From Aminobacter aganoensis (GTDB lineage Bacteria > Pseudomonadota > Alphaproteobacteria > Rhizobiales > Rhizobiaceae), in the NCBI RefSeq assembly GCF_014206975.1, contig NZ_JACHOU010000010.1, positions 1 through 64,000 of the forward strand: a stretch of DNA of 64,000 bases, written 5' to 3'. The notes beneath the pieces are model-generated. The model saw only the letters and a list, made by a program, of their open reading frames with translations. It was not told the DNA's origin and made no database searches. Numbering within the stretch: the stretch's first letter is position 1; each line of letters starts with the position of its first letter. A program made the translations under genes and the position numbers. This document shows, one piece after another, positions 11,092-25,328 of the stretch.

Positions 11092-12228
11092 TCAGTAGGC
11101 CGCCCGGTAGATCGACAGGATGTCGGTGCGCGCCAGGTCGCGCGGGTTGTTGTCGAGCAGGCGGCGGATGGCGAAGGCGTCATCGGCCATCGTCTCCAGG
11201 TCGTTTTCCGGCACGCCCAGCTTTGACAGCCGCATCTCGATTCCGAGCGAGGCGCAGTAATCATGCGTCGATCCGAACACGTCCTGCACGGCATTCGCCT
11301 CCGGCAGCCCGAGTGCAGAGAGCACATGACCGGTCTTCTCGGTCGCCGCCGGCAGGTTGAAGGCCAGCACATGCGGGAAGATCAGCGCGTTGGCGGCGCC
11401 ATGGGCGATGTGCCAGCGCGTGCCCAGCGGATAGGCGAGCGCATGGCCGCCTGCCGTATTGACCGGGCCGAGGCAGAAGCCCCCATAGAGCGAGGCGAGC
11501 GACAGCCCGGCGCGGGCCTCGACGTCGCTGCCGTCCTTGACCGCACGCGCAAGGTAGCGGCCGACCAGCTTCACGCCTTCAAGCGCGTAGAGGTCGATCA
11601 TCGGATGCGCCTTCTTGTTGGTGTAGGCCTCGACGCAGTGGGCCATGGCGTCGACGCCGGTGGCGGCGGTGACGGCCGGCGGCACGGTCATGGTCAGCGC
11701 CGGGTCGACGATCGCGATGTCGGCCAGCATCTCGATGCTTTCGACGGCGAGCTTCGCCTGCGTCTCCGGATCGGTGACGAGCGCGCGGATTCCGGCCTCG
11801 CTGCCGGTGCCGGATGTCGTCGGCACCTGGGCGAGCGCCACCCGGCGCCTTGCCGCCTTGCCAACACCGACGATGTCCTGCAGCCGCTGGCCGGTGCCGG
11901 CCATCACCGAGACAAGTTTGGCAAGGTCCATGGCGCTGCCGCCGCCGAAGCCGACGATCAGGTCGGCCTCCGAGCGGGCCGCCAGCTCCAGCACCTTTTC
12001 GAGATTGGGCAGGTCAGGCTCCGGGCGCACCTCGCCGAAGACGACCGTCTCGACACCCAGATCAAGCGTGTCCACCCGTGCCGCATTGAATCCGTCGGCG
12101 ACGACCAGCGCCTTCCTGACGTTGCGTGCCTTCACCCAGGCGGCAAGCCGCGACACCACGCCGGGGCCGAACTCGATGACCGGCGGCCGAACGATCGTGA
12201 TGGGCGTGTTGAGACCGGTCATCGTCAT
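11092..12228 (-). CDS. Iron-containing alcohol dehydrogenase
   Basis: This 378-residue group III dehydrogenase uses NAD(P)H and a divalent metal to interconvert an alcohol and a carbonyl. It shows the nucleotide motif GGGSAMDLAK near residue 95 and the metal ligands in VDAMAH (Asp and His), GGHALAYPLG (His) and HIAHGAAN (His). An internal ATG six bases on (12222) lies at a better distance from GGAG and may be the real start. It is the last gene of the leftward operon, 37 bases after the sialidase-fold gene. Related enzymes include maleylacetate reductase and lactaldehyde reductase; the context suggests a small aldehyde or hydroxy-acid intermediate. Confidence 0.85.
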   Translation of the reverse strand: MTMTGLNTPITIVRPPVIEFGPGVVSRLAAWVKARNVRKALVVADGFNAARVDTLDLGVETVVFGEVRPEPDLPNLEKVLELAARSEADLIVGFGGGSAMDLAKLVSVMAGTGQRLQDIVGVGKAARRRVALAQVPTTSGTGSEAGIRALVTDPETQAKLAVESIEMLADIAIVDPALTMTVPPAVTAATGVDAMAHCVEAYTNKKAHPMIDLYALEGVKLVGRYLARAVKDGSDVEARAGLSLASLYGGFCLGPVNTAGGHALAYPLGTRWHIAHGAANALIFPHVLAFNLPAATEKTGHVLSALGLPEANAVQDVFGSTHDYCASLGIEMRLSKLGVPENDLETMADDAFAIRRLLDNNPRDLARTDILSIYRAAY

Positions 12229-12265
12229 GGCTCCAGCTGGATATGGCCGCCGCAGTCAAGCATCG

Positions 12266-13471
12266 TCAGTACGCGCCTGGGGACAAGCGGACATATTTGA
12301 TGGCGCGGCGGAAATAGGTGAAGGCGACGTGGATGACGCCATCCGGGGTCGCCAGGATCGACGGGTAGGAGAACTCGCGGTTCAGCCCGTCCTTGGAATT
12401 GTTGGTCAGGCAGAAGCCGTCGCCCGTCTCGAGGTCGATGCGGTTGCCGAAGCTCTCGCCGCCGTCGGAGGAGAAGGCGAGGCTGAGCGGCGCGCGCGGC
12501 ACGCCCCAGACGGCCTTGCGGCCTTCCGGCTCGGTTGCTGGCTCGGCCGCGACGGGCTCGTCGCCCTCGATCTCGTCATAGAGCGACAATCGCCGGTCGT
12601 CGGACATCGAGGCGTTGGCATGGTTGTAGACGATGGCGATGCGGCCATCGGCCGTGCGCACGGCCTGCACCGACGAGTTGTTGTTGGGCAGGTCGGTGGC
12701 TTCAGGCGCGCTCCAGCTGCGGCCGCCGTCAAGCGAGCGGCTGCGCAGCACCTGTTCGGAAAAGCGGTTGCGGTACAGGGCCACCATCTCCTCGCTGCCG
12801 AGCGCCACGATGTTCATGTGCACGGCACCTAAGCTGTCGGGCACGTCGTGCATCGTCCAGCTGGCGCCGGCGTCGGTGGAAACCAGCACCGCCGCAGTGT
12901 CGACGTCGCCGCTCCAGCGTGTCCCCGGCCGGCCGATGCAGCGAAACACCGGCAGCAGCCATTCGCCGCGGCCGTTGATGATGATCGGCTGGCGCACGAA
13001 GGTGCCGGGAATGTCGCAGAGCACCGACACCTTGCCGAAGCTCTTGCCGCCATCCTCGGAGATGCGCCGCTTGACCACCGCGCCGTCCTGATGGCCCGAG
13101 GTCTGCGAGGTGTAGAGCAGCCAGACCTTGCCGTCGGGCGCGTTGAACAGCAGCGGGTTCTGTTCGGATTTCTGGGGGTCGTCCGACATCTTCTCCGGCG
13201 CCGACCAGCTGTCCGAGCCGGGCGCCAGTCGCGACAGGTAGACCGAGATGTCGCCCATGCCCTCCATCGTGCCGCCAAACCAGACGCAGGCCAGCGTGCC
13301 GTCGGGCAAAAGCGACAGGTTGGCGGCATGGTTCTGCACCGTCGGCGACGCCAGGAACGCGTCGCTGCGTCCCGACGACACCTGATGCAGCTTGCCGTCC
13401 ATCTGCGCGGCGACCTCTGCGTGGGTCGTGACTGCGGCGGACGGGTGCGCCTGGGCTGTATTGGTGGCCAC
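12266..13471 (-). CDS. Sialidase-fold (BNR repeat) protein without signal peptide
   Basis: The 401-residue product has the six-bladed propeller pattern of the sialidase superfamily. Four Asp-box repeats (S-x-D-x-G-x-x-W/F) are visible: SEDGGKSF, STDAGASW, SLDGGRSW and SSDGGESF. The start is GTG 13471, with AAGGAGG five bases upstream and the dapA-like stop just before it. The N terminus (VATNTAQAHPSAAVTT) has no signal peptide, so the protein is probably cytoplasmic, unlike secreted neuraminidases. Lying in an operon with an aldolase of the NanA/DapA family, it may cleave or isomerise an imported glycoside or acid-sugar conjugate. True sialidase activity is not shown. Confidence 0.8.
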   Translation of the reverse strand: MATNTAQAHPSAAVTTHAEVAAQMDGKLHQVSSGRSDAFLASPTVQNHAANLSLLPDGTLACVWFGGTMEGMGDISVYLSRLAPGSDSWSAPEKMSDDPQKSEQNPLLFNAPDGKVWLLYTSQTSGHQDGAVVKRRISEDGGKSFGKVSVLCDIPGTFVRQPIIINGRGEWLLPVFRCIGRPGTRWSGDVDTAAVLVSTDAGASWTMHDVPDSLGAVHMNIVALGSEEMVALYRNRFSEQVLRSRSLDGGRSWSAPEATDLPNNNSSVQAVRTADGRIAIVYNHANASMSDDRRLSLYDEIEGDEPVAAEPATEPEGRKAVWGVPRAPLSLAFSSDGGESFGNRIDLETGDGFCLTNNSKDGLNREFSYPSILATPDGVIHVAFTYFRRAIKYVRLSPGAY

Positions 13472-13481
13472 CGCGCCCTCC

Positions 13482-14387
13482 TTACGGCAGCCGTTCGAGC
13501 TGCGGCCGGAGCGCGGCGATCTCGCTTTCGCCCAAGCCCACCAGCGGCGGCCGCAGTCGCTGCCATGCCTTCTCGCCATGCTTCAGGCCGACCATGGCCT
13601 TGATGGTCGGGATCTGGGCGTAGCTGTTGGACAGGTTACGCCAGGCGTTGATGCGCGCCTGCGCGGCCTCGACCTTGGCCGCTGCTGCCGCATCGGCGTG
13701 GCCGTCGAACACGGTGCGCAGCGAATCCGCGATCAGGTTGGACGTCGCGGTGATGCAGCCGGCGCCGCCTTCGCGCAGCAGCGGCAGCATCAGCGGATCG
13801 GCGCCGGGGAACACGGCAAAGCCCGGATAGGCCTTCAACAGCGCCTGCATGTTGGCGAGGTCGCCCTTGGATTCCTTGATGCCGACGACCGTCTTCGGAA
13901 AAGCCTCGATCAGGTGGCCGACCAGCTCGACCGACAGCGAAATGCCAGAGACCTGGGGGATGTGGTAGAGCACGACCTTGAGCCGGTCGTCGGCCACGCC
14001 TTCGAGGATGCGCGAATAGGCGTCGAACAGGCCGTCGTCGGACACGCCCTTGTAGTAGAAGGGCGGCAGCATCACGACCTTGTCGATCCCCAGCGACAGC
14101 GCATGGCGGGTCAGCTCGATGGTCTCCGGAATGGCCGCGACGCCGGTGCCCGGCATCAGCCTGTCGGCGGCAACACCTGCCTTGATCACGCTTTCCAGCA
14201 TCGCCTTGCGCTCACCGAGCGAGAACGAGTTGGCCTCGCCCGTCGTGCCGAGCAGGGCCACGCCATGGCAGCCCTCGTCGAGCAGCCGCTGGCAATGCTT
14301 GGCCAGCAGGCCGTGATCGGGCGACAGGTCGGCGTTGATGGGCGTGGCGGCGGCGGAGAAGACGCCCGAGATTGCGAAACTGGTCAT
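13482..14387 (-). CDS. DapA/NanA family aldolase (dihydrodipicolinate synthase-like)
   Basis: This 301-residue class I aldolase-fold protein carries [16 protein letters not shown] near residue 45, the catalytic tyrosine in [13 protein letters not shown] and the Schiff-base lysine in [11 protein letters not shown]. The family includes lysine-pathway DapA, N-acetylneuraminate lyase and 2-keto-3-deoxy acid-sugar aldolases. Its place between a PdxA-like and a sialidase-fold gene argues for the catabolic kind. The ATG at 14387 overlaps the PdxA stop (ATGA), so the pair is coupled. It ends 10 bases before the next gene. The substrate is probably a 2-oxo acid; nothing here fixes it. Confidence 0.85.
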
Positions 14388-15373
14388 GCTGTCACCCGAG
14401 GCGTTCCGGCGAGCTTGCGCGCATAGGCGATCGCCGCATTCATGTTGACGTGGTTGGCCTTGCCGGTCCCGGCAATGTCGAAGGCGGTGCCATGGTCGAC
14501 CGAGGTGCGGTCGATCGGCAGGCCGAGCGAAATGTTGACGCCGCTGTCGAAGGCGACCAGCTTCATCGGGATGTGGCCCTGGTCGTGATATTGCGCGACG
14601 ACGAGGTCGAAGGCACCTGAATAGGCGCGGTGGAAGACCGTGTCCGGCGGGACCGGCCCGTGGGCGTCGATGCCCTCGGCCTTGGCTGAAGCCACGGCAG
14701 GCGCGATGAACTCGTCGTCCTCGGTGCCGAACAGGCCGTTTTCGCCGCAATGCGGGTTGAGGCCGGCGACCGCGATGCGCGGGTTGGCGACGCCGATGCG
14801 GCGCAGGTGGCGATGGCCGGTGCGGATGGTTTCGAGGATGCGCTCCGGCTTGACCCTGATAATCGCCTCCTTGAGCGACACATGGGTCGAGACGTGGATC
14901 ACCGACATGCGCTCGGAGGCGAGCAGCATCCACGACGAGCGCGAACCGGTCAGATGCGCCAGCATGCCGGTGTGGCCGTCATAGTGGTGGCCGGCAAGGT
15001 TCAGCGCTTCCTTGTTGATGGGCGCGGTGACGATGCAGCCGATCTCGCCTGCGGTCGCCGCTTCCACCGCACGCGCGATGAAGCGGAACGAGGCGTCGCC
15101 GGCGCGGGTGTCGATCTTGCCGAAGGCGATCGGGCCGCCGTCAATTTCGACATGCTCGATGGCGATGGTGTCGGCGCCGTCGGAGGCGGGCGCGAATTTC
15201 AACGGCGCGCCGACGATCTTCGCTGCCGCCTTGAGGCTGTCGCGGTTGCCGAAGACGCGGATGGTGGCGCGGTCGGCAGCATCCATCTCGGCCAGCGACT
15301 TGCAGATGATCTCGGGTCCGACGCCTGCCGGGTCCCCCATGGTGATGCCAATCGTGCGGCTAGAACTCGCCAT
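14384..15373 (-). CDS. PdxA-family 4-phospho-acid dehydrogenase (PdxA2-like)
   Basis: This 329-residue NAD-dependent dehydrogenase has the family hallmarks [16 protein letters not shown] at the N terminus, [21 protein letters not shown] near residue 130 and the metal-binding C-terminal region [25 protein letters not shown] (first part quoted by motif). PdxA itself oxidises 4-phosphohydroxy-L-threonine in vitamin B6 synthesis. The paralogue PdxA2 oxidises and decarboxylates D-threonate 4-phosphate to dihydroxyacetone phosphate and is found beside DUF1537 kinases, as here. It is first in the leftward operon. The catabolic role is inferred from context, and a role in pyridoxal synthesis cannot be excluded. 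Confidence 0.86.
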
Positions 15374-15749
15374 CGCTCCCTGTCCGTCTTTTCCGCAGGC
15401 AGCACCCGGCTCCTGCGGTCTGGAATCCTCCCGAGCGCAAGCGCCCTGGGGGCGCGATCTGCACTTGGCTTATGGCCGGAAACTGACCACAAGTAGACAA
15501 GTTGTCAAGTTGCTTTTTCCAGCGCAAGCAGGCTGTCCGCTCAACGTAGAAGAGTATTGTATTGATTTAACGAGGAAATTCCTGCGGCATTTAACCGGGA
15601 GCTAATTTTTCTCGCCCGGTGTCTGAAAAAATGAATTGACATGTTTACAATATGGCGGCATTTGTTCGGCCCACGGTCGCCGCTTCCGTGTCTGTTGCCT
15701 TTCGACTGACCAGAGCATCGCCGTTCACGGGTTTCAGGGAGGAAATGTG
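15374..15749. promoter_or_regulatory. Divergent control region of the acid-sugar locus
   Basis: This 376-base region separates the leftward pdxA-like operon from the rightward ABC transporter operon and should contain both promoters. The stretch 15480-15660 is AT-richer than its surroundings. It has a dyad at 15496-15506 and a TTGACA at 15636-15641, which could be a -35 element for the transporter; a convincing -10 was not seen. The GntR-family protein encoded at 22477 is the likely ligand. Confidence 0.5.
15488..15511. promoter_or_regulatory. Candidate GntR operator
   Basis: GACAAGTTGTC at 15496-15506 is a dyad with one central base. Read on the minus strand, the motif ACTTG occurs three times at 8-base intervals across 15490-15510. 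FadR-type GntR proteins usually bind short dyads of this size. Which regulator binds is inferred from gene order only. Confidence 0.45.
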
Positions 15750-17399
15750 ATGTCGAAACGGAACACCGAGACTCCGTCGCGTGCCGGGATGACCCGCCGC
15801 GACGCGCTCAGGCTCGGCCTGGGCAGCGCTGTGGGCTTCACGCTGCTCGGCCTCAACGCCAAGATCGTCTTTGCGCAGGAAGGCCAGGTGCTGAAGGTTG
15901 CCAATCCGGCCTTCAACCAGGATTGGTCGCCGTTGCGCGGCGGCGGCGTGCCCTATCGCTGGAATTCGGCCTGGTGGGCCTCGCCGATGTATTTCGACAG
16001 CGAAGGCAAGATCCATCCTTATGTCTTCGCCACCTGGGAAGGTTCGGCTGACTCCAAGACCTGGACCTTCAAGCTCGACCCCAAGGCGACCTTCTCCGAC
16101 GGCAGCAAGATCACCTCGGCAGATGTCGCCGGGTCGTGGAACGTAGCCGCGATGCCCGGCACCAAGAGCCAGCGTGCCGACCAGGTGCTCGCCAAGGTCG
16201 CGGGCTTCGCCGAGGTCACCGGCGGCAGCGCCAACACCATTTCCGGCGTCGCCACCCCGGACGAGGGCACCGTCGTCGTGACGCTGACCGAGTCCGACCC
16301 GATCTACTTCATGCGCGTCGCCAACCACATCGTGCCGATCACCAAGGCGTCGCAGTCGCGCGGCGAGGACGGCAACGAGATCCAGGACTGGTTCACGCCC
16401 GACGCGGGTGCCGTTTATTCCGGCCCGTTCAAGCTGACCAGCATCGACATCGACGGCGGCAAGCTGGTGTTCGAGCCGAACGAAAACTTCTTCGGCCCGA
16501 AGCCCAAGCTCGCCCGCATCGAGATCACCTCGATCGAGGACAATGTGACGGCGACCTCGCTGCTCAAGTCGGGCGAGTTCAACGCCCACACCGAGCTCGT
16601 CACCTCGACCATCGTGCAGGACCTCGGCGCCGAATTCGCCTCCGGCCCGCTGATCCCGACCAGCCAGCACTTCTGGTTCAATTCCAAGCGCGCGCCGATG
16701 GATGACCCCAAGGTTCGCCAGGCGCTGATCATGGCCGTCGACCGCGACGGCCTGATGAAGGCCTCGTTCCCCGACGGTCCGCACAAGAAGACCGACCAGG
16801 TCCTCAACTCGGTGCCAGGCGCCGACAATTCCGGTTTCGAGCCCTATCCCTACGATCCGGAAGGCGCCAAGAAGCTGCTCGCCGAGTCGACCTATGGCGG
16901 CCCCGAGCGCCTGCCCAAGATCCTGTTCGTCGGCATATCCTCGCCGGCCAACGAGGCGGCGGCCCAGTTCATCGCCGAGCAGTGGCGCCAGAATCTCGGC
17001 ATCACCGCCGTCGACATGAAGCCGCAGCAGGACGCCTATGCCGGCCCCGACCAGAACGCGGTGCAGATCTTCCGCGATGACGTCGGCACCCGCGTGCCGG
17101 ACGCGGCGAGCTATCTCGCCGGCTCCATCGCCTCGACCTCGTCCAACGCCCAGAACAAGCTCGGCGGCTACAAGAACGACAAGGTCGACCAGCTGCTGGC
17201 CGAAGCCGCCACCAAGGCGGCGGACGATCCGCAGCGCGTGGCCCTTGCCCAGGAGGCCCAGAAGGTCTTCCGCGAGGACTGGACCTTCATTCCCTGGTAC
17301 GCACAGGCGATGTCGCGCTGGGCCAACGCCAATGTGAAGGGCATCGACAAGAACCTCGACTGGCAGGTTGTCGCCCCTTGGGAAATCACCGTCGGCTGA
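15750..17399 (+). CDS. Dipeptide-type ABC transporter binding protein, Tat-exported
   Basis: This 549-residue periplasmic receptor is of the SBP_bac_5 (DppA/OppA) type. The N terminus has a twin-arginine motif (TRRDALRLG) before a hydrophobic stretch ending in IVFA, so export is probably by the Tat route. The start at 15750 follows GGGAGGA. Family features include TWTFKLDPKATFSDGSKIT near residue 110 and VRQALIMAVDRD near residue 325. The family moves peptides, glycosides, nickel or opines. Here the neighbouring kinase and PdxA-like gene suggest an acid-sugar-like or conjugated ligand. A strong stem-loop follows the stop. Confidence 0.88.
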   Translation: MSKRNTETPSRAGMTRRDALRLGLGSAVGFTLLGLNAKIVFAQEGQVLKVANPAFNQDWSPLRGGGVPYRWNSAWWASPMYFDSEGKIHPYVFATWEGSADSKTWTFKLDPKATFSDGSKITSADVAGSWNVAAMPGTKSQRADQVLAKVAGFAEVTGGSANTISGVATPDEGTVVVTLTESDPIYFMRVANHIVPITKASQSRGEDGNEIQDWFTPDAGAVYSGPFKLTSIDIDGGKLVFEPNENFFGPKPKLARIEITSIEDNVTATSLLKSGEFNAHTELVTSTIVQDLGAEFASGPLIPTSQHFWFNSKRAPMDDPKVRQALIMAVDRDGLMKASFPDGPHKKTDQVLNSVPGADNSGFEPYPYDPEGAKKLLAESTYGGPERLPKILFVGISSPANEAAAQFIAEQWRQNLGITAVDMKPQQDAYAGPDQNAVQIFRDDVGTRVPDAASYLAGSIASTSSNAQNKLGGYKNDKVDQLLAEAATKAADDPQRVALAQEAQKVFREDWTFIPWYAQAMSRWANANVKGIDKNLDWQVVAPWEITVG

Positions 17400-17413
17400 T
17401 GCCGGCGTAACGC

Positions 17414-17436: not shown

Positions 17437-17481
17437 TATCCTCTTTCTGAGATCTAACCGAGCGGTGGGAGGCCGCCCGCC

Positions 17482-18438
17482 ATGCTGCGTTATATTGCAA
17501 CACGGCTGCTGCTGTGGATCCCGTCCGTCCTGCTGGTCATGCTGGCCGTCTATGCCATGGCCTATTACGGCGCCGGCGACCCGATCAAGCTGATCTTCCT
17601 GCGCGCCCCCGGCGATGTCGCCTACAATCCCGAAAAGATCGAGGCGATCCGCGATGCGGCTGGTCTCAACCGACCGTTCCTCGTCCAGTTCGGCAGCTAC
17701 ATCCTCAACCTGATCCAGGGCAATTTCGGCAACTCGCTGACCTCGGGCCGCTCTGTCTGGGCGATGGTGTCGGCCGCGGCCCCCGTCTCCTTCAAGCTCG
17801 GCCTCTGCGCCGTCATCCTGACGGCCATCGTCGCAGTGCCCCTCGGCATGATCGCGGCGATGAACCAGAACACCAAGATCGACTACGCGATCCTCGGTTC
17901 GGCGCTGTTCCTCTGGGCCATCCCGGCCTATGTCGCCGGCCCGCTGCTGATGGTGCTGCTGATCTTCATCCTGCCGGGCGGCAGCGTTCCCTATGGCTGG
18001 GGCGGCATTTTCGACGTCCGCATCCTGTTGCCGCTGCTTGTGCTGTCCTTCCAGCCGATCGCGCTGATCGTGCGCCAGACGCGTGCCGCGGTCATCGAGG
18101 TGCTGTCGGAGGATTTCGTCCGTACCGCCCGCGCCAAGGGCGTGCCGGAGATGGTGGTCGCCTTCCGCCACATCCTGAGGCCGGTGCTGACGCCCGTCGT
18201 CACCCAGCTCGGCCTGATCATGATCACCATCGTCAATGGCGCCATCTTCGTCGAGCTGGTGTTCGGCCTGCCCGGCCTCGGCCGCCTGACGGTCTCGGCG
18301 CTGACCAATTCCGACTATCCCGTCATCCTGGCCATCACGCTGATCGGCTCCTTCCTGGTGATGCTGTCGAACCTTCTCGTCGACGTGCTCTATCCGCTGC
18401 TCGATCCGCGCGCCAACGACACGATGAGGAGCCGCTGA
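17482..18438 (+). CDS. Dipeptide-type ABC transporter permease (DppB family)
   Basis: This 318-residue inner-membrane permease shows the DppB pattern: an N-terminal helix (MLRYIATRLLLWIPSVLLV), a short periplasmic part, and the BPD_transp_1 domain with its coupling loop EDFVRTARAKGVPEMVV near residue 210. The C-terminal YPLLDPRAND is typical. GGGAGG lies upstream of the ATG. It pairs with the next gene's product, whose start is one base past this stop. Confidence 0.9.
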   Translation: MLRYIATRLLLWIPSVLLVMLAVYAMAYYGAGDPIKLIFLRAPGDVAYNPEKIEAIRDAAGLNRPFLVQFGSYILNLIQGNFGNSLTSGRSVWAMVSAAAPVSFKLGLCAVILTAIVAVPLGMIAAMNQNTKIDYAILGSALFLWAIPAYVAGPLLMVLLIFILPGGSVPYGWGGIFDVRILLPLLVLSFQPIALIVRQTRAAVIEVLSEDFVRTARAKGVPEMVVAFRHILRPVLTPVVTQLGLIMITIVNGAIFVELVFGLPGLGRLTVSALTNSDYPVILAITLIGSFLVMLSNLLVDVLYPLLDPRANDTMRSR

Positions 18439-18439
18439 C

Positions 18440-19405
18440 ATGACGATGACACCCGTCAATCTCTCCTCGACAGTGGCCGACGACGAGCCCCCCGTCAGCT
18501 TGTGGCGTGATGCCTGGCATCGCCTGCTGCGCAACAAGCTGGCGGTCGCCGGTCTCGCCGTGGTCATCCTGCTCGCCTTCGTCGCCGTCTTCGGTCCGTG
18601 GCTCACGCCCTACGACTTCCTGACCCAGGACCTCAGCGCCCGCAACCAGGCGCCGTCGCTGGCGCATCTGTTCGGCACCGACGACCTCGGCCGTGATGTC
18701 TTCTCCCGCGTCGTCTATGGCACCCGCACCGCCTTTGTCGTGGCGATCGTGGTGACGGCAATTGCGGTCGTCATCGGCGTCACCCTCGGCGCCATGGCCG
18801 GCTTCTTCGGCGGCATGTTCGACCGCGTCGTCATGTGGTTCACCGACATGACCATGTCGGTTCCCAACCTGCTGCTGGTCGTCGTCATCAACGCCTCGCT
18901 CAAGACGCCGATCACCGCCTGGATGGAGGCGCGCTACCAGGCGACGCTCAACCCGTTCTACCGCGAAACCATCTGGGTCGATTTCCTGTTGGTGTTCGGT
19001 TCGATGGCGCTGATCAGCTGGCCGCCCTATGCCCGCCTCGTCCGCGCCCAGGTGCTGTCGATCCGTGGCCGGCCCTATGTCACCGCCGCCCGTGCGCTCG
19101 GCCTCACCAACCGCCTGATCCTGATGCGCTACATCGTTCCCAACGCTATCGGCCCGCTGATCGTCTCGGTCAGCGCCGGCCTTGGCACCGCCATGGTTCT
19201 GGAAAGCGCCTTCTCCTTCCTCGGCGTCGGCGTCAACCCGCCCACGCCGAGCTGGGGCAACATGATCTCCGACGGCCTGCGCGTCTGGCAGCATTATCCA
19301 CATCTGCTGGCAGCACCCGCCGCCGTGCTCGGCCTCGCCACCGTCGCCTTCTCGTTCCTCGGCGACGGCCTCAACGACGCTCTCAACCCGAGGGGCAGCA
19401 AATGA
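18440..19405 (+). CDS. Dipeptide-type ABC transporter permease (DppC family)
   Basis: This 321-residue permease has the DppC features: a cytoplasmic N-terminal tail, LFGTDDLGRDVFSRVVYGTR near residue 75, the coupling loop RPYVTAARALGLTNRLILMRY near residue 210, and the terminal FLGDGLNDALNPR. Between the two halves it has a longer periplasmic loop (about residues 150-180) than most DppC proteins. It overlaps the ATPase gene by four bases. Confidence 0.9.
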   Translation: MTMTPVNLSSTVADDEPPVSLWRDAWHRLLRNKLAVAGLAVVILLAFVAVFGPWLTPYDFLTQDLSARNQAPSLAHLFGTDDLGRDVFSRVVYGTRTAFVVAIVVTAIAVVIGVTLGAMAGFFGGMFDRVVMWFTDMTMSVPNLLLVVVINASLKTPITAWMEARYQATLNPFYRETIWVDFLLVFGSMALISWPPYARLVRAQVLSIRGRPYVTAARALGLTNRLILMRYIVPNAIGPLIVSVSAGLGTAMVLESAFSFLGVGVNPPTPSWGNMISDGLRVWQHYPHLLAAPAAVLGLATVAFSFLGDGLNDALNPRGSK

Positions 19406-20412
19406 CCGCTCCCGCAGACAACAAGCCGCTGCTCGACGTGCGCGGCCTGACCATCGAGATCGACACCCGCCGCGGCCCTGCCGTCATCGTCGACGGCATC
19501 AACCTCACCGTCGGCAAGGGCGAGACGCTCGGCGTCGTCGGCGAATCCGGCTGCGGCAAGAGCCTGACCATGCTGAGCCTGGTCCGGCTCCTGCCCAACA
19601 AGATCAGGGTCAAGGGCGGCACCGCCGAGTTCGCCGGCCGTGACCTGCTCAAGATGTCGAAGTCGGAACTGCGCCAGGTGCGCGGAGGCAAGATCGGTTT
19701 CGTCTTCCAGGATCCGATGACCTCGCTCAATCCGGTGATGCGCATCGGCGACCAGCTGTGCGAGCCGCTGATCTACCACCGCAAGATGAACAAGGCCGAT
19801 GCGCGCGTCCGCGCCATCGAGCTTTTGCGCCTCGTCGGCATCCCCGGCCCCGAGCAGCGCATCGAGGCCTACCCGCACGAGCTCTCCGGCGGCATGCGCC
19901 AGCGCGTCATGATCGCCATCGGGCTCGCCTGCGACCCGGAACTCCTGATCGCCGACGAGCCGACCACCGCGCTCGACGTCACCATCCAGGCCCAGATCGT
20001 CGACCTGGTGAAGGACCTGCGCAAGAAGCTCAACATGTCGGTGGTGTGGATCACCCACGACCTCGCCTTGATCGCCGGCCTCGTCGACCGCGTCGCCGTG
20101 CTCTATGCCGGCACCGTCGTCGAGGACGCGCCGGTCAACGAGCTCTTCGCCCGTCCCACGCATCCTTATACGCGCGGTCTCTTGGCCTCGATCCCCAAGC
20201 TCTCCGACGAACGCGCCAGCCGGTTGTCCTCCATCGGCGGCACCCCGCCCGAACCAGGCCGCCGCCCCAAGGGCTGTCCCTTCGCGCCGCGCTGCGGACT
20301 GGCCGAGAGCGTTTGCCATGAGCGCGTGCCGGTGCTCGAGCCGGTCGCGGGATCGGGCGGCCACCGCGTCGCCTGCTTCGTCGCCCAGCGCCAGATGATG
20401 GAGGCCGCGTGA
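19402..20412 (+). CDS. Dipeptide-type ABC transporter ATPase (DppD family)
   Basis: This 336-residue ATPase has Walker A GESGCGKS near residue 47, signature LSGGMRQRVMIA, Walker B LLIADEPTTALD, and the C-terminal oligopeptide-type extension with HPYTRGLLASIPKL and the cysteine-bearing GCPFAPRC. It starts within the DppC stop (ATGA) and shares one base with the next gene. With the partner ATPase it powers the importer. Confidence 0.9.
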   Translation: MTAPADNKPLLDVRGLTIEIDTRRGPAVIVDGINLTVGKGETLGVVGESGCGKSLTMLSLVRLLPNKIRVKGGTAEFAGRDLLKMSKSELRQVRGGKIGFVFQDPMTSLNPVMRIGDQLCEPLIYHRKMNKADARVRAIELLRLVGIPGPEQRIEAYPHELSGGMRQRVMIAIGLACDPELLIADEPTTALDVTIQAQIVDLVKDLRKKLNMSVVWITHDLALIAGLVDRVAVLYAGTVVEDAPVNELFARPTHPYTRGLLASIPKLSDERASRLSSIGGTPPEPGRRPKGCPFAPRCGLAESVCHERVPVLEPVAGSGGHRVACFVAQRQMMEAA

Positions 20413-21404
20413 TGGCTGCCGAACCGCTGATCAAGGTCGAGAACCTCGTCAAGCATTTCGTCGTCCGCCTCGGCGCATTCGGCGAGCGCGGCGCCACCGT
20501 CTATGCGGTCGACGACGTCAGCTTCGACATCTTCGCCGGCGAGACGCTGTCGCTGGTCGGCGAATCCGGCTGCGGCAAGTCGACCACCGGCTTCACCTTG
20601 CTCAACCTGCAGAAGGCAACCTCGGGCAAGGTCATCTTCCAGGGCGAGAACATCGTCTCGCTCGACGAAAAGCGCATGCGGCCCTATCGCCGCGAGCTGC
20701 AGATTGTCTTCCAGGATCCCTATTCGACGCTCAACCCGCGCATGACCATCGGCGAGGTGGTGGGCGAGCCGATCCTGTTCCACAAGCTCGCCACCAAGGC
20801 CGAGCTGCCCGAGTGCGTCTCGCGCCTGCTCGCCGATGTCGGCCTGCCCGCGCGTTTCGCCCAGCGCTATCCGCACGAACTGTCGGGCGGCCAGCGCCAG
20901 CGCGTGGCGATCGCCCGGGCGCTTGCCTGCCAGCCGAAATTCATCGTCTGCGACGAGGCGATCTCGGCGCTCGACGTCTCGGTGCAGGCGCAGATCATCA
21001 ACCTGCTGCTCGACCTGCAGGAAAAGTATGGGCTGACCTACCTGTTCATCGCCCACGACCTTGCCGTCGTCCGCCACATCAGCACGCGTGTCGGCGTCAT
21101 GTATCTCGGCCGCATGGCCGAACTCGCGACCCGCGAGCAGCTGTTCTCCAATCCGCTGCATCCCTACACCAGGGCGTTGCTGTCGGCGGTGCCCGAGGCC
21201 GATCCCGAGCTCGAAAAGACCCGCCAGCGCCAGATCCTGACCGGCGACGTGCCGAGCCCGCTGGCCCCGCCGGCAGGCTGCCGCTTCCACACCCGCTGCC
21301 CCATCGCCATGGACAAGTGCAAGGCCGTCGTGCCCGAGTGGCGCGAGGTCGTTCCCGGCCACCACGTCTCCTGCCACGCCGTGGGCATGGAAACGGCTGG
21401 ATGA
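20412..21404 (+). CDS. Dipeptide-type ABC transporter ATPase (DppF family)
   Basis: This 330-residue partner ATPase has Walker A GESGCGKST, signature LSGGQRQRVAIARAL, Walker B IVCDEAISALD and a C-terminal oligopeptide-type extension with CRFHTRCPIAMDKC. The ATG at 20412 lies seven bases after GGAGG and is preferred to the GTG three bases earlier. The Walker B stretch reads CDEA in place of the commoner CDEP, a change that keeps the catalytic glutamate. Its stop overlaps the kinase start. Confidence 0.9.
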   Translation: MAAEPLIKVENLVKHFVVRLGAFGERGATVYAVDDVSFDIFAGETLSLVGESGCGKSTTGFTLLNLQKATSGKVIFQGENIVSLDEKRMRPYRRELQIVFQDPYSTLNPRMTIGEVVGEPILFHKLATKAELPECVSRLLADVGLPARFAQRYPHELSGGQRQRVAIARALACQPKFIVCDEAISALDVSVQAQIINLLLDLQEKYGLTYLFIAHDLAVVRHISTRVGVMYLGRMAELATREQLFSNPLHPYTRALLSAVPEADPELEKTRQRQILTGDVPSPLAPPAGCRFHTRCPIAMDKCKAVVPEWREVVPGHHVSCHAVGMETAG

Positions 21405-22480
21405 CGCTGATGCTCGCCATCGTCGCCGACGACCTGACCGGAGCGCTCGACACCTCGGCGCCCTTCGTCGCGTCAGGCCTCAAGGTCGCGGTGGCGATGA
21501 CCCCCGAGGCGACCGGCAAGGCTCTTGCCGGCAGGCCGGATGTCTTTGCCGTCAGCACCGCGTCGCGGGCGCTGCCGGCGGATGTTGCCTCTGCCAGGGT
21601 GCGCGACGTGGCGAAGCAATTGATGCCGCATGCTCCCGGCATCGTCATGAAGAAGATCGACTCCCGCCTGAAGGGCAATGTCTGCGTGGAGGCGGACGCA
21701 CTCGCCGAGGCGTCGGGCCGCGACGCGCTGGTGGTGGCACCTGCCGTTCCGGACCAGGGCCGCACGACGCGCGACGGTGCCGTCGTCGGCCGCGGCGTCG
21801 ATGCACCCTTGCCGGTGTTGGCGGCATTCGCCGGCTGCGCCAGGCGCGCTTCCGTCCGCAACGCCGCCGCCGATGCCGACCTCGACCGCGTCGTCACCGA
21901 TACCGACTGGAGCAGGAGCGTTGCCGTCGGCGCGCGAGGTCTGGGCCTCGCCTTCGCGCGGCACCTCGACGGGGACAATTCGGAGCACGCATTGCCATCG
22001 CCAAGCGACGGAAACATGCTCTTTGCCTTCGGCTCGCGCGATCCGATCACCGACCAGCAGGTCGCAACCCTGCTGGATGGCAATCCCGATGTCGGTAGCG
22101 TCGATGCCCCGAACGGTCGCTTCGTCCTGCCGGACGACTGCGCCTTGCCGATGGTCGTGCGCTGCACTGGCGACATGATCGAGGATCCCTCCCGCATTGC
22201 CGCCCGTTTCGCCGAGCAGGTCGCCGCCGTAGTCGAGCGCCTTCGCCCCGCCACGCTCGTCATGGGCGGCGGCGACACGGCACTGGCGATACTTGGCGCG
22301 CTCGGCGCCGACGTGCTATTTCCGCAGGGCGAGGTGGCGCCGGGCCTGCCCTGGTTCACCATCGCGACACGCCATGGCGAGGGGCTGCGCTGTGTCGTAA
22401 AATCCGGCGGATTCGGGACGGTCGCGGTTCTCTCCGATCTCTTGCGGCCACCGAGCGGGGAACAGGCGGAACAGACATGA
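21401..22480 (+). CDS. DUF1537 four-carbon acid-sugar kinase
   Basis: This 359-residue ATP-dependent kinase belongs to the DUF1537 family, whose known members phosphorylate D-threonate (DtnK) or 3-oxo-tetronates (OtnK). The N-terminal substrate domain begins IVADDLTGALDTSAPF and contains KKIDSRLKGN and APAVPDQGRTTRDG. The C-terminal nucleotide domain has VMGGGDTA near residue 285 and KSGGFGT near residue 335. It is shorter than the roughly 420 residues usual for the characterised enzymes. A second ATG (21410) would drop three residues. The pairing with a PdxA-like dehydrogenase 6 kb away suggests DtnK-like chemistry giving a phospho-acid for oxidation. Confidence 0.87.
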   Translation: MTLMLAIVADDLTGALDTSAPFVASGLKVAVAMTPEATGKALAGRPDVFAVSTASRALPADVASARVRDVAKQLMPHAPGIVMKKIDSRLKGNVCVEADALAEASGRDALVVAPAVPDQGRTTRDGAVVGRGVDAPLPVLAAFAGCARRASVRNAAADADLDRVVTDTDWSRSVAVGARGLGLAFARHLDGDNSEHALPSPSDGNMLFAFGSRDPITDQQVATLLDGNPDVGSVDAPNGRFVLPDDCALPMVVRCTGDMIEDPSRIAARFAEQVAAVVERLRPATLVMGGGDTALAILGALGADVLFPQGEVAPGLPWFTIATRHGEGLRCVVKSGGFGTVAVLSDLLRPPSGEQAEQT

Positions 22481-23265
22481 CGACCGAATTGCAGCAGGAC
22501 GGAACAGAGCCCGAAGCGGTCGACACCGGCGAAAAGCCGGGCAACGGCGGCACGAAGGGCGCTTCGAAGGCACCCAAGCTGGTCGACAAGGTCTTCGACC
22601 AGCTGCAGGAGCGCATCGTCTCGGGCGAATTCCCCTCCGGTTCCAAGCTGCCGGGCGAGCACGACCTGGCGACGCTGCTCGGTGTTTCCCGCCCCGTGGT
22701 GCGCGACGCGCTCGGCCGCCTGCGCGACGTCGGGCTGGTTTATTCCCGCCAGGGCTCGGGCACCTATGTCCGTGTCTTTGACACCCAGAAGACCAGCCTC
22801 GGCTTCTCCCCGGTCAAGACCATCGCCGACATCCAGCGCTGCTACGAGTTCCGCCTGACCATCGAGCCGGAGGCGGCCTATTTCGCCGCTCTCCGCCACG
22901 ACGACGCCGCGATGCAGAAGATGCGCGCCGCGCTGTCCGAGCTGCGTGACGCCACGCGCGACCAGACCCACCGCTCCGACGTCGACTTCCTGTTCCACCG
23001 CTCGGTGGCCGAGGCCGCCAACAACCACTACTACACCGCCTGCCTCGACGCCCTGCGCCAGCACATCGCCGTCGGCATGAACCTGCACGGCCTGTCGCTG
23101 ATGGGTCCGCTGACCAAGCTCGAGCAGGTCTACGACGAACATCGCGGCATCTGCGACGCCATTGCCGCCGGCGAGGCCGAGCTGGCTCGCGACCTGATGC
23201 GCGAGCACCTCGAAGGCTCGCGCAACCGCCTGTTCGAAAACAAGGTGCTCGACCTCTCGCGCTGA
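22477..23265 (+). CDS. GntR family regulator, FadR (FCD) type
   Basis: This 262-residue repressor-type protein has a low-complexity N-terminal tail of about 30 residues, a winged helix-turn-helix (GEHDLATLLGVSRPVVRDAL near residue 65) and an all-helical FCD ligand domain. Possible metal ligands are DVDFLFH and the later REHLEGSR histidine. The gene is coupled to the kinase by an ATGA overlap. It is the only regulator gene in the acid-sugar locus and probably controls both divergent operons through the dyad near 15500. The ligand is probably the pathway substrate or a phosphorylated product. Confidence 0.88.
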   Translation: MTTELQQDGTEPEAVDTGEKPGNGGTKGASKAPKLVDKVFDQLQERIVSGEFPSGSKLPGEHDLATLLGVSRPVVRDALGRLRDVGLVYSRQGSGTYVRVFDTQKTSLGFSPVKTIADIQRCYEFRLTIEPEAAYFAALRHDDAAMQKMRAALSELRDATRDQTHRSDVDFLFHRSVAEAANNHYYTACLDALRQHIAVGMNLHGLSLMGPLTKLEQVYDEHRGICDAIAAGEAELARDLMREHLEGSRNRLFENKVLDLSR

Positions 23266-23316
23266 CCTCCGGTCGGCTGAACCGACGCCGCGTTCGCGGC
23301 ACGACAGGAAAGACAG

Positions 23317-24279
23317 ATGACAACGACGATCGTTACGGTCGGCGGCCGCATGGCTGCCGAGGGCCTTGCCATGCTCGAACGTGCCGGCATCGAGTGCATC
23401 TCGACCGAACCCTACCCGACGAAGCCGGAGGTGTTGGCGCTGATCGACAAACACCAGCCGGCAGCACTGGTGGTGCGGCTGGTGGAACTTGTCGACCGCG
23501 ACATGCTGGCTGCCTCGCGCAAGCTGAAGATCGTCGCCAAGCACGGCGTCGGCACCAATGACATCGATGTTGCGGCGGCCAAGGCGCTCGGCATTCCGGT
23601 CATCATGGCGACCGGCGCCAACGCCCATTCGGTGGCCGAGCACGCGCTCGGGCTGATCCTCGCCTTGACCAAGGATTTCCTGCGCCAGGACGGCCACATC
23701 CGCAACGGCCTGTGGGACAAGAAGCTTTATGCCGGGAGCGAGCTGCGCGGCCGGAAGCTAGGTCTCGTCGGCTTCGGCCTGATCGGCCAGATCCTCGCCC
23801 GCATGGTTGCTCCAATCGGCATGCAGGTCTCGGCCTACGATCCGTTTGCGCCCGAGGAGGCTTTCTCCGGCGGCGTCACCCGCGCAACATCGCTCGATAC
23901 GCTTCTTGCCGAATGCGATGTCGTCAGCCTGCACTGCCCGCTGACCGATGGCACGCGCAACCTGATCGGCGCACGTGAAATCGCTCTGATGAAACCCACG
24001 GCCTACTTCATCAACACCGCGCGCGGCGAGGTCGTCGACGAGCCTGCGCTGGTCGCCGCCCTCCAGGCCGGCCGCATCGCCGGCGCCGGGCTCGACAGCT
24101 TCGCCGAGGAGCCACCGGTGGCAAGCCCGCTGTGGCAGCTGCCCAACGTCCTGCTGACACCACATGTCGCCGGCGTCACCGAGGACGCGCGCCGCGCCGT
24201 CTCGATCATGACGGCGACCAACGTGCTCGCCTTCCTCCGTGGCGAGCCGCTCGCCCGGAACCTCCATGCAAGGGTTTGA
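23317..24279 (+). CDS. D-2-hydroxyacid dehydrogenase (phosphoglycerate dehydrogenase-like)
   Basis: This 320-residue NAD-dependent enzyme has the Rossmann motif GLVGFGLIGQ near residue 150 and the catalytic trio of the D-isomer-specific family: Arg in FINTARGEVVDE, Glu in DSFAEEPP and His in LTPHVAGVT. AGGAAAGACAG precedes the ATG. The family oxidises D-2-hydroxy acids or reduces 2-oxo acids. It follows the GntR gene by 51 bases and precedes an Ldh2-family dehydrogenase, which usually has the opposite stereochemical preference. Together they could interconvert the two forms of a hydroxy acid. Confidence 0.86.
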   Translation: MTTTIVTVGGRMAAEGLAMLERAGIECISTEPYPTKPEVLALIDKHQPAALVVRLVELVDRDMLAASRKLKIVAKHGVGTNDIDVAAAKALGIPVIMATGANAHSVAEHALGLILALTKDFLRQDGHIRNGLWDKKLYAGSELRGRKLGLVGFGLIGQILARMVAPIGMQVSAYDPFAPEEAFSGGVTRATSLDTLLAECDVVSLHCPLTDGTRNLIGAREIALMKPTAYFINTARGEVVDEPALVAALQAGRIAGAGLDSFAEEPPVASPLWQLPNVLLTPHVAGVTEDARRAVSIMTATNVLAFLRGEPLARNLHARV

Positions 24280-24281
24280 CC

Positions 24282-25328
24282 ATGGCCTCCGATGACACGC
24301 GCCACGACGCCGATGCGCTGACCGATCTCGCCTTCGCCCTGTTCAAGGCGGCTGGCCTCGATCCGGACAAGGCCCATGCCGTCGCCGAGATCCTGGTCGA
24401 GGCCGATTTGATGGGCCACACCACCCACGGGCTGGCGCTCGCGCCCTGGTATCTCGAAAGCATCCGCGACGGCGTCATGACCAAGTCAGGCGCGCCCAAA
24501 GTCATTTCCGATCGTGGCGCCTGCGTCGCCTGGGACGGTTTGCGCCTGCCTGGCGCCTGGCTGACGGCAACCGCCATGGACCTCGCCGTCGCGCGCGCCG
24601 CCACCTATGGCACGGTCACCATAGCCATCGGCAACAGCCACCACATCGGCTGCCTCGCCGCCTACCTCACCCGCGCCACCGATCGCGGCTACATGGCGCT
24701 GCTTGCCAGCTCCAGCCCGTCGGGCGCCTCGGTCGCCCCTTTCGGCGGCACCCGCGGCGTCTTCACGCCAAACCCCATCGCCGCCGGCATCCCGACCGAT
24801 GGCGATCCGATCCTGATCGACGTCAGCGCCTCGATCACCACCAACAACATGAGCTCCCGGCTGATCGCCGAGGGCCGCAAGTTCGAGCATCAATGGCTGC
24901 TCGACCGCCACGGCAATCCGACAGACGATCCCAATGTGCTGAACAACGGCGGCACCATCCTGCCCGCCGGCGGCCTCGACCACGGCCAGAAGGGTTATGC
25001 GCTGGCGATCCTGGTCGAAGCCCTGACGCAAGGCTTGGCCGGTTTCGGCCGCGCCGACAAACCCGAGGGCACCAATGCCTCGGTCTTCCTGCAGGTCATC
25101 GACCCCACCGCCTTCGCCGGCGAGGCCGCCTTTGTCAGCCAGACCGGCTGGCTGGCCGACGCCTGCCGCACCAATCCCCCGCGCCAGGGTGTCGAGCGGG
25201 TCCGCCTGCCGGGCGAAAGCGCCGCCCGCCGCAAGCGTCAGGCCCTGGTCCAGGGCATTGCGCTGCACGAAGGCGTGTTCGACAAGCTGCGTGTCGAGGC
25301 AACCCGGCTCGGCGTCGATTTCACCTAG
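24282..25328 (+). CDS. Ldh2 family oxidoreductase (malate/L-lactate dehydrogenase type)
   Basis: This 348-residue NAD(P)-dependent oxidoreductase has the Ldh2/YlbC fold. Visible features are DLMGHTTHGLALAPWYL near residue 40 (catalytic His), the stretch SHHIGCLAAYLTRATDRGYMALL near residue 115 and GGTRGVFTPNPIAAGIP near residue 150. The family includes sulfolactate, ureidoglycolate and diketogulonate reductases. It is the last gene of the rightward operon, two bases after the hydroxyacid dehydrogenase stop, with only a weak AAGGG upstream, so it may depend on translational coupling. Confidence 0.86.
   Translation: MASDDTRHDADALTDLAFALFKAAGLDPDKAHAVAEILVEADLMGHTTHGLALAPWYLESIRDGVMTKSGAPKVISDRGACVAWDGLRLPGAWLTATAMDLAVARAATYGTVTIAIGNSHHIGCLAAYLTRATDRGYMALLASSSPSGASVAPFGGTRGVFTPNPIAAGIPTDGDPILIDVSASITTNNMSSRLIAEGRKFEHQWLLDRHGNPTDDPNVLNNGGTILPAGGLDHGQKGYALAILVEALTQGLAGFGRADKPEGTNASVFLQVIDPTAFAGEAAFVSQTGWLADACRTNPPRQGVERVRLPGESAARRKRQALVQGIALHEGVFDKLRVEATRLGVDFT

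Follow-up and report, generated by a model that had tools for sequence, protein, structure and literature searches.

The window, i.e. the whole analysed stretch of 64,000 nucleotides from Aminobacter aganoensis, carries two divergent gene groups separated by a gap with a conserved 15-base site (Table 1). All the genes named in the first-pass annotation corresponded to open frames at their positions. The start of the BNR_2 protein was uncertain, and its open frame reaches 13579.

Table 1. Genes and sites of the locus in window coordinates
Feature	Position	Strand	Basis
Fe-alcohol dehydrogenase (Fe-ADH)	11092..12228	-	PF25137/PF00465
BNR_2 sialidase-fold propeller-type protein	12266..~13414	-	PF13088, E 8.8e-64
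DHDPS/DapA-family (DapA/NanA) class I aldolase	13482..14390	-	PF00701
PdxA2-type dehydrogenase	14384..15373	-	PF04166
Conserved 15-base site TTGACATRTTTACAA, divergent promoter gap	15636..15650	+	
Periplasmic solute-binding protein (SBP), dipeptide/oligopeptide family	15750..17399	+	SBP_bac_5
ABC permease 1 (presumed from position)	17482..18438	+	open frame; conserved beside SBP
ABC permease 2 (presumed from position)	18440..19405	+	open frame; conserved beside SBP
Putative ABC ATPase 1 (OppD-like)	19402..20412	+	open frame, conserved
Putative ABC ATPase 2 (OppF-like)	20409..21404	+	open frame, conserved
Short DUF1537 four-carbon acid sugar kinase	21401..22480	+	PF07005 + PF17042
FadR-type GntR regulator	22477..23265	+	PF00392 + PF07729
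D-isomer-specific 2-hydroxyacid dehydrogenase	23317..24279	+	PF02826/PF00389
Ldh_2-family 2-hydroxyacid dehydrogenase	24282..25328	+	PF02615

The importer, GntR regulator, DUF1537 kinase, PdxA, DapA-type aldolase, Fe-ADH and sialidase-fold protein were treated as seven core genes. All seven were held together by 75 of 80 named loci, which were picked by similarity and belong mostly to Rhizobium, and the grouping is therefore not due to chance. The SBP and the DapA family were each present in 80 of these loci, the kinase in 78, GntR in 77 and Fe-ADH in 76. The leftward and rightward genes were thus conserved with each other, in agreement with the earlier proposal that they form one system. The two 2-hydroxyacid dehydrogenases, which had been counted in the same system, looked accessory instead. 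They were detected in 20 of the 80 named loci, a lower bound since for most of these loci the available sequence extends little past GntR, the side on which the pair lies in the window, and both were absent from Aminobacter sp. SR38, in which the DNA beyond GntR was read. The two co-occurred in 20/20 loci having either, and they could possibly act as a C2-epimerising pair. A D-isomer-type and an Ldh_2-type dehydrogenase side by side resemble SlcC/ComC, the two-dehydrogenase sulfolactate racemase. Here, however, the pair looks accessory, and the Ldh_2 protein scored 144.3, below the L-sulfolactate dehydrogenase cut-off of 500.

The gene set occurs in many plant-associated bacteria, and rearranged sets were found in Caballeronia, Pantoea and Enterococcus. 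In Enterococcus raffinosus, a member of another phylum, the kinase, Fe-ADH, DapA, PdxA, YhcH and propeller genes stand in a row. The kinase, PdxA, DapA family and Fe-ADH were all located near the propeller gene (stretch of at most 19.9 kb) in 20 of 40 further loci, which are not independent of each other and in which the DapA, SDR and GntR profiles match broad families. Four of the 40 had none of the four enzymes near the propeller, and there the kinase and PdxA were paired elsewhere in the genome. The enzymes stay together while gene order and importer change.

The site TTGACATRTTTACAA was the sole match in the window when up to 3 mismatches were allowed (0.04 expected), and it was present in the gap of 78 of the 80 loci with up to 2 mismatches. 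A promoter-like match at 15623-15651 spans the site, which may serve as an operator and overlaps what could be the -10 box of the importer operon. The regulon is probably controlled by the GntR regulator of the locus, which matched the curated NanR model below its cut-off. A regulator close to the Pleomorphomonas set carries the name nagC. Importers vary across the sets: ABC systems of two peptide-type forms and SSS carriers were found, a CitMHS carrier adjoins the Enterococcus set, and TTT-type binding proteins occur in Roseomonas. The substrate may, as suggested earlier, be imported whole and cut in the cell by a propeller enzyme, but the propeller lacks the GH33 signature, and the variety of importers fits a small polycarboxylate no worse than a conjugate.

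The BNR_2 protein is the only BNR_2 match in the genome, and its AlphaFold model had a pLDDT of 85.6. The best 50 Foldseek matches were nearly all sialidases, with TM values by query length of about 0.6-0.7. Of 57 proteins, 53 have three or four Asp boxes (S-x-D-x-G-x-x-[WFY]), three have two and one has five. The fold and the Asp boxes of the proposed sialidase-fold member were thus confirmed, whereas the classical GH33 residues were not. In GH33, the [FY]RIP motif carries the first carboxylate-binding Arg, and a catalytic Glu is paired with a Tyr nucleophile. The motif was found in 0/57 proteins, and at the position of a NanC Glu the aligned residue, in a weak alignment, was His199, kept in 56/57 proteins and replaced by Gln in one. 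Tyr350 was invariant in 57/57, as were E51, D55, R215, R217 and R307. Its residues thus set the BNR_2 protein apart from classical GH33 sialidases. It is probably cytoplasmic, with no signal peptide recognised by eye. Such a protein is annotated as 'exo-alpha-sialidase' in many plant-associated bacteria, and 310 plasmid records contained a match.

The kinase had been described as a DUF1537 protein, and both its SBD_N and NBD_C domains were above cut-off, each partly covered; the form is, however, shortened, and its match to the N-terminal Pfam domain covers no more than positions 1-129 of that domain's 230. The eight best PDB chains for its model (pLDDT 92.5) trace to five proteins: four carry a DUF1537 label, and the fifth, 3dqq, labelled putative tRNA synthase, was taken to be a DUF1537 protein as well. 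The TM values were 0.45-0.75 with rmsd up to 17.7, and some chains superpose poorly. The kinase is the only PF07005 match in the genome; a second PdxA is encoded elsewhere. The best curated model of the kinase was D-threonate kinase (NF047819; 137.6 bits, cut-off 450), and the window PdxA reached 336.1 bits with D-threonate 4-phosphate dehydrogenase (NF002891; cut-off 583), both below cut-off. The general PdxA model TIGR00557 (4-hydroxythreonine-4-phosphate dehydrogenase) was passed (368.4 vs 290.35), which does not decide the substrate because Pantoea-type D-threonate members pass it too. The window PdxA scored 310 bits to 2hi1 (PdxA 2) and 307 to 6e85 (D-threonate 4-phosphate dehydrogenase), and 193 to 1ps7 (PdxA of E. 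coli).

The Pantoea-type kinases passed the D-threonate kinase cut-off in 3/3 tested cases (L117, 505.9; L172, 615.4; L173, 613.5), and the corresponding PdxA proteins passed theirs in 4/4 (L117, L172, L175, L182; 657.8-679.8). L117 is a Klebsiella record and L182 a Pantoea record, while L172, L173 and L175 match them in gene order. The D-threonate cut-offs were reached neither by the two proteins of L114 (Caballeronia), L116 (A. fabrum), L174, L179 (Enterococcus) or L207, nor by the L144 kinase. In Caballeronia, the kinase and PdxA are one 768-aa protein. From the PdxA similarity and these Pantoea-type scores, the predicted end of the route in a tetronate phosphate was retained, by analogy as D-threonate 4-phosphate. 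Known D-threonate catabolism (DUF1537 kinase and PdxA2) uses the same two terminal enzyme families, and the Pantoea-type pairs meet its curated cut-offs, unlike the window's own pair. The known route starts at D-threonate, whereas here an aldolase, a reductase, a propeller and other importers precede these steps, and the input is probably a compound larger than a tetronate, as had been suggested.

The window aldolase keeps the Schiff-base Lys, the active-site Tyr and the GTTGE (GxxGE) motif of the class I DapA/NAL family; six matches to this family occur in the genome, this one included. Its assignment as dapA (TIGR00674) was rejected with 140.2 against a cut-off of 206.15 and with Val at the position of the carboxylate Arg, and that as N-acetylneuraminate lyase with 104.9 and 100.3 bits against cut-offs of 281 or 382. 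Among 13 aligned DapA-type sequences from the sets, seven have Arg at the position of the E. coli DapA arginine, which we take to be the carboxylate binder, and two have Lys. The curated models matched by Fe-ADH include lactaldehyde reductase and 4-hydroxybutyrate dehydrogenase, and none of the scores reached its cut-off. The gene was absent from the available DNA of three Devosia loci (L039, L042, L080), and no replacement was recognised in L039 and L042. In three other loci lacking Fe-ADH (L139, L141, L157), an SDR gene is flush with PdxA; the SDR of L139 was compared with curated models.

From the gene content, its conservation, and the family and motif evidence, we infer every reaction, the order of the steps and the substrate. 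The gene set itself is well supported, and the exact food molecule is a prediction: with a chance just short of even, the set would be an undescribed degradation route for Dha, an unusual seven-carbon sugar acid found in the pectin of plant cell walls. The importer would take up the sugar acid or a small derivative, from which the sialidase-fold protein may deliver the free acid by opening a ketoside or an anhydro/lactone form; this is the least certain step. The DapA-type aldolase would cleave the open chain by retro-aldol reaction into pyruvate and D-threuronate, a four-carbon aldehyde acid, and Fe-ADH would reduce the latter to D-threonate. The DUF1537 kinase, as a D-threonate 4-kinase, would then form D-threonate 4-phosphate, from which PdxA would yield dihydroxyacetone phosphate and CO2 by oxidative decarboxylation. 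If both dehydrogenases share a cofactor, the redox would cancel, and Dha and ATP would give pyruvate, dihydroxyacetone phosphate and CO2. When the stereochemistry of six 3-deoxy-2-keto acids was worked through from their Fischer patterns, Dha alone gave a C4 acid, namely D-threonate. The substrates of ordinary DapA, pyruvate and a C4 aldehyde acid, have the skeleton of the proposed cleavage products, which favours Dha. The step logic is that of the galactarate/glucarate route GarL-GarR-GarK, in which an aldolase gives pyruvate and an aldehyde acid, followed by a reductase and a kinase; here the route would be one carbon longer, with other families and an extra PdxA oxidative decarboxylation.

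YhcH (DUF386) is present in the Pantoea-type and Enterococcus sets. According to PMC8141875, YhcH provides sialic acid in its open form to the DapA-family aldolase that cleaves it and gave no help with 2-keto-3-deoxyxylonate, which is largely open-chain, and the presence of YhcH therefore points to a ring-closed keto-acid. Against the Dha reading stand the D-threonate scores below cut-off of the window's kinase and PdxA and of those in several further loci, and the lack of Fe-ADH in the Devosia DNA. No RG-II glycosidase was noticed in passing next to the loci. Moreover, just 3 of the 40 further loci contained YhcH, that of L117 was below the N-acetylneuraminate anomerase cut-off (109.7 vs 160), and the window DapA has the above-mentioned Val. 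Propeller homologues outside the set count against it as well. The Streptomyces homologue has just DapA-family and ABC genes beside it, all four enzymes are missing near the Halomontanus homologue and within 10 kb on a fecal scaffold, and the P. agglomerans locus is SSS-propeller-YhcH-SDR only. Next to the Roseomonas and Pseudoroseomonas homologues, PdxA was absent and the kinase was not adjacent; the last gene of the Pseudoroseomonas stretch is annotated as 3-oxo-tetronate kinase. The Dha route also leaves the role of the propeller unexplained; the protein should be unneeded if free Dha is imported.

The same chemistry could serve a different 3-deoxy-2-heptulosaric acid, be it a stereoisomer, an ester or a conjugate, which we regard as unlikely. 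Such an acid occurs in algal scale polysaccharides, Roseicitreum, a holder of the set, came from intertidal sediment, importers differ between lineages, and the stereocentre that the aldol step removes is not read by any of the present evidence; the Pantoea-type D-threonate enzymes, however, require the Dha configuration at the two stereocentres that remain. Somewhat less probable again is a system for D-threonate or D-erythronate (or their esters or lactones) as the nutrient, with the propeller opening a conjugate or lactone, the 2-hydroxyacid dehydrogenases epimerising C2, and DapA and Fe-ADH acting on side substrates. D-threonate needs the kinase and PdxA alone, and the strict pairing of the 2-hydroxyacid dehydrogenases recalls the sulfolactate racemase. 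Yet the aldolase would be superfluous although the DapA family is in all 80 named loci, the epimerising pair is found in only 20 of them, and YhcH serves a ring-closed keto-acid ahead of an aldolase.

A catabolic system for sialic-acid-like nonulosonates or Kdo-type octulosonates is improbable. The sialidase fold, the DapA-family aldolase with the NanA-like YHIPQVSG motif of the DapA-type alignment, the NanR match of GntR, and YhcH and an SSS-type carrier in some sets are shared with sialic acid catabolism (NanA, YhcH/NanQ, carriers, sialidase). However, NanE and NanK were not annotated in the stretches read, where the plasmid gene tables are incomplete, and the propeller lacks the classical sialidase residues. 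Cleavage of Kdo, like that of sialic acid, gives an aldose and not a C4 acid, so the kinase and PdxA, enzymes for a C4 acid, would be unexplained. In Bacteroides, the hydrolases GH33, which has a sialidase-type fold, and GH143 act on Kdo and Dha ketosides in RG-II degradation; those degrade the glycan itself, whereas the present propeller lacks the FRIP motif and, by eye, a signal peptide. That an ordinary dipeptide importer stands by chance beside unrelated sugar-acid genes is very improbable: SBP_bac_5 proteins usually bind peptides and other lineages use a different type of importer, but this reading is already contradicted by conservation, as the binding protein adjoins the enzymes in all 80 named loci and one promoter site is shared in 78.

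Dha and Kdo are the two ulosonic-type sugars of RG-II. In the open literature, no description of bacterial Dha breakdown was seen by title or start of abstract among the matches listed, which is weak evidence of absence, and none of the matches listed named a natural source of D-threonate. Tentatively, and with less assurance than for Dha as the substrate, the locus may encode a complete intracellular Dha pathway via D-threuronate and D-threonate to pyruvate and dihydroxyacetone phosphate, one that ranges through Proteobacteria and reaches at least one Bacillota plasmid, with a new family of ulosaric-acid propellers. If true, the locus would give the D-threonate pathway its natural source, a testable function would be available for the protein annotated 'exo-alpha-sialidase' in many plant-associated bacteria, and the propellers would form an enzyme family of their own that acts on ulosaric acids. 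Tools for measuring Dha, for which a standard is lacking according to PMC8218411 and PMC12168206, would also be gained.

All the genes named by the first-pass annotation were present at the locus (table below). Across the genome, the DUF1537 kinase domain and BNR_2 were each matched once, PdxA twice and the DHDPS family six times; the locus PdxA is thus a second copy and not the sole one for vitamin B6. Close relatives of the locus occur in Aminobacter. Directly ahead of it lie genes resembling a set for the uptake and CoA ligation of branched-chain/aromatic acids, and the giant repetitive frame in the same table (about 3,800 aa) probably encodes a surface adhesin secreted by a type I system.

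Genes of the locus and of its surroundings
Feature	Coordinates	Strand	Position
Peripla_BP_6 receptor, ABC ATPase, PaaK-like AMP-binding protein	7478-11031	+	directly ahead of locus
Iron-containing alcohol dehydrogenase (Fe-ADH)	11092-12228	-	left operon, 4th gene
Sialidase-fold protein (propeller)	12266-about 13414	-	left operon, 3rd gene
DapA family	13482-14390	-	left operon, 2nd gene
PdxA	14384-15373	-	left operon, 1st gene
SBP, 2 permeases, 2 ATPases, DUF1537 kinase, GntR, 2-hydroxyacid dehydrogenase, Ldh_2 dehydrogenase	15750-25328	+	right operon, in order
Open frame with DUF5801 repeats, von Willebrand A domain, cadherin-like and RTX repeats	25500-37133	+	

The conservation of the locus was studied in 80 named loci retrieved by the propeller, the best 80 of 159 confirmed. 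Genes were labelled using profiles made from close relatives (E up to 1e-8), the DapA, SDR and GntR labels denoting family membership only. Propeller, PdxA, DapA family and SBP were each detected in 80/80 loci, kinase, GntR and Fe-ADH in 78, 77 and 76, respectively. The first-pass annotation had staked its proposal on the leftward and rightward genes being conserved together, and this was borne out, as the seven core genes occurred jointly in 75/80 loci. The loci are non-independent, since they were picked by similarity and are mostly from Rhizobium. Among the incomplete loci, L037 (Devosia) reaches just about 0.6 kb past the propeller gene, and L074 begins within the importer, so its kinase and GntR lie outside the stretch. 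The other three are also from Devosia: L039 is without Fe-ADH, L042 begins within the kinase-GntR side and is without Fe-ADH, and L080 begins inside the importer with no Fe-ADH within 2 kb past the propeller gene. No substitute for Fe-ADH was recognised in L039 and L042. There is good support for the idea that these genes make up a single undescribed acid-sugar system; the component proteins belong to known families.

Beyond the close relatives, the propeller was detected in 50/397 genomes of an order-wide sample (E up to 1e-20), and in 3/385 and 11/398 genomes of class- and phylum-wide samples, respectively (E up to 1e-30). The samples overlap and include the genome of the window; altogether 57 genomes bore a propeller, and longer stretches (at most 19.9 kb) were taken for 40 of them. 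All four enzyme partners were present in 20/40 stretches and none in 4/40; counted gene by gene, the kinase occurred in 33 stretches, a DapA-family gene in 30, PdxA in 26 and Fe-ADH in 25. In the four genomes with no partner in the stretch (G112, G327, G324, G294), kinase and PdxA were paired at another place, as DapA-kinase-PdxA-FeADH blocks (L207, L208), FeADH-PdxA-kinase on a short contig (L214) and PdxA-kinase-GntR (L209). Of the five kinase-only loci, L160 and L165 among them, the three in G333, G370 and G243 were followed further, and in each a block of PdxA, FeADH, DapA family and 2-hydroxyacid dehydrogenase was located roughly 8-17 kb off (L197, L202, L203). A second kinase-PdxA-DapA-FeADH block was present elsewhere in G119 (L210), G175 (L212) and G316 (L211).

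Annotated plasmids carry the set in Methylobacterium nodulans, Caballeronia, Rhizobium daejeonense, Agrobacterium fabrum, Roseicitreum and Pleomorphomonas, and in Pantoea stewartii without an annotated kinase. The Pantoea-type order is divergent PdxA, then FeADH, DapA, SSS, propeller, YhcH (DUF386) and SDR. In Enterococcus raffinosus (Bacillota), kinase-FeADH-DapA-PdxA-YhcH-propeller and a CitMHS carrier are consecutive, and Caballeronia has a kinase-PdxA fusion of 768 aa. A second form with ABC-propeller-kinase order was observed in L144, L148, L152, L153, L160, L163, L168 and L177. The full-length kinase of L144 is adjoined by a PrpR_N sigma-54 activator, similar frames occur in L152, L163 and L168, and L153 holds an FAA_hydrolase-family gene. 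SSS-propeller-SDR sets in L143 and L162 stand apart from the kinase block and adjoin a protein that by eye looks secreted, L162 having also a gene that by eye resembles the enolase superfamily. The excerpt of PMC12904279 describes S. meliloti kinase/DapA-family variants on pSymB, not clearly at the locus of the set.

Counting words across 77 promoter gaps, the window's included, resulted in the word TTGACATATTTACAA, whose core 10-base words were present in 69/77 gaps. Allowing up to 2 mismatches, it was located inside the divergent gap of 78/80 loci and nowhere else in those loci; it was also found in 12/78 further loci scanned, near relatives among them. In the window it occurs once (15636-15650; 0.04 expected), overlying the -10 of a promoter-like match. 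The conserved site may be the GntR operator or in part promoter. A FadR-like operator, TNGTNNNACNA, was rejected, being unenriched in the gaps (1/77 vs a mean of 6.0 in shuffles).

The window PdxA scored 310 bits with 2hi1 (PdxA 2), 307 with 6e85 (D-threonate 4-phosphate dehydrogenase) and 193 with 1ps7, which we take to be E. coli PdxA; the general pdxA was the only curated model passed. For the window kinase the top curated model was D-threonate kinase (NF047819), the score of this short form falling far under the cut-off. The eight top PDB chains against its structure model (pLDDT 92.5) were all from DUF1537 proteins, of which 3dqq is presumably one, the first three with large rmsd. In the case of Pantoea-type sets, the kinases of L117, L172 and L173 (3/3 tested) passed NF047819, and the PdxA of L117, L172, L175 and L182 (4/4 tested) passed the D-threonate 4-phosphate dehydrogenase model NF002891; L117 is a Klebsiella record and L182 is Pantoea stewartii. 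The models were not passed by the kinases and PdxA of L114, L116, L174, L179 and L207, nor by the kinase of L144. As the window pair is under the cut-offs whereas the Pantoea-type proteins tested are above, it is by analogy that the window kinase and PdxA would act on the D-threonate route.

The DapA-type protein retains the Schiff-base lysine, the tyrosine and the GTTGE motif, and is under the cut-offs of the DapA and NanA models. Two DapA kinds occur in the set: the window kind with YHIPQVSG, near to YNIPALSG of NanA, and another with arginine at the position of E. coli DapA's arginine. Among 13 aligned sequences, the window's included, arginine was found in 7, lysine in 2 and neither in 4. 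The DapA-family gene adjoining the A. fabrum set (L116 7520-8413) is of the arginine-bearing kind, and those of S. meliloti (L112 about 7711, L120 about 5711) score low, 72 and 45 bits, a possible sign that the system has exchanged its aldolase. In L139, L141 and L157 an SDR is flush with PdxA in the place of Fe-ADH, which fits a plain aldehyde reductase role. YhcH is present in the Pantoea-type and Enterococcus sets. In the excerpt of PMC8141875, YhcH delivers sialic acid in its open form to the aldolase and is of no help to the largely open 2-keto-3-deoxyxylonate; its presence in the sets suggests that the 2-keto acid here is ring-closed. The L117 YhcH scores under the sialic acid anomerase cut-off, which fits another sugar and proves nothing.

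The top matches of the propeller structure model (pLDDT 85.6) were sialidases. In 57 homologues, some near-identical and with Enterococcus, Streptomyces and a haloarchaeon included, Glu51, Asp55, Arg215, Arg217, Arg307 and Tyr350 were invariant, and His199, which faces a NanC glutamate in a weak alignment, was kept in 56/57. The [FY]RIP motif was absent from all 57. On the residues presumed catalytic in sialidases, the missing motif and His199 at the glutamate position rule out a classical sialidase; the protein is a different kind of member of the sialidase superfamily. Given that YhcH occurs alongside it, the propeller is probably not merely a ring opener. Its step might be to free Dha, the seven-carbon 3-deoxy-2-heptulosaric acid of plant pectin RG-II, from a small ketoside or to open an anhydro or lactone form. 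Homologues without the set in Streptomyces, Halomontanus, Roseomonas, Pseudoroseomonas and a fecal scaffold indicate that the propeller family is broader than the system; in the 10 kb of that scaffold, deposited as 'Bacteriophage sp.', partner genes were absent.

The D-isomer-type and Ldh_2 dehydrogenases occurred jointly, behind PdxA, in at least 20/80 named loci, a lower bound because in most of them the DNA stops shortly past GntR. They were never found singly, and are therefore a linked pair. In the 29 kb read of Aminobacter sp. SR38, the pair was detected neither beside GntR nor elsewhere. Sulfolactate is epimerised at C2 by such a dehydrogenase pair; by analogy, the D-isomer-type and Ldh_2-type pair could epimerise C2 here, e.g. 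D-erythronate to D-threonate. In the excerpt of the LarA epimerase paper PMC11770544, 4-deoxy-tetronates were the only tetronates.

For reduction to give a tetronate, the aldolase product has to be a C4 aldehyde acid, and its parent consequently a C7 acid that carries a carboxyl at either end. Six natural 3-deoxy-2-keto acids were compared by their Fischer patterns. Kdo, KDG, DAH, KD-glucarate and KD-xylonate were rejected, as none yields a C4 acid; Dha alone does. Within RG-II, Dha bears an arabinose, and the ribulokinase and ribose-type ABC genes adjoining the Pleomorphomonas set (L124 15489-20297) are therefore conceivably linked to it. Ordinary DapA condenses pyruvate with another C4 aldehyde acid, thus a C7 skeleton is familiar to the DapA family. 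The C4 acid from Dha, D-threuronate, would after reduction read COOH-left-right-CH2OH, which is D-threonate, and the redox of the reductase and PdxA steps would cancel, provided a common cofactor. Dha as the specific substrate of the system is a prediction resting on this fit, to which we give about even chances.
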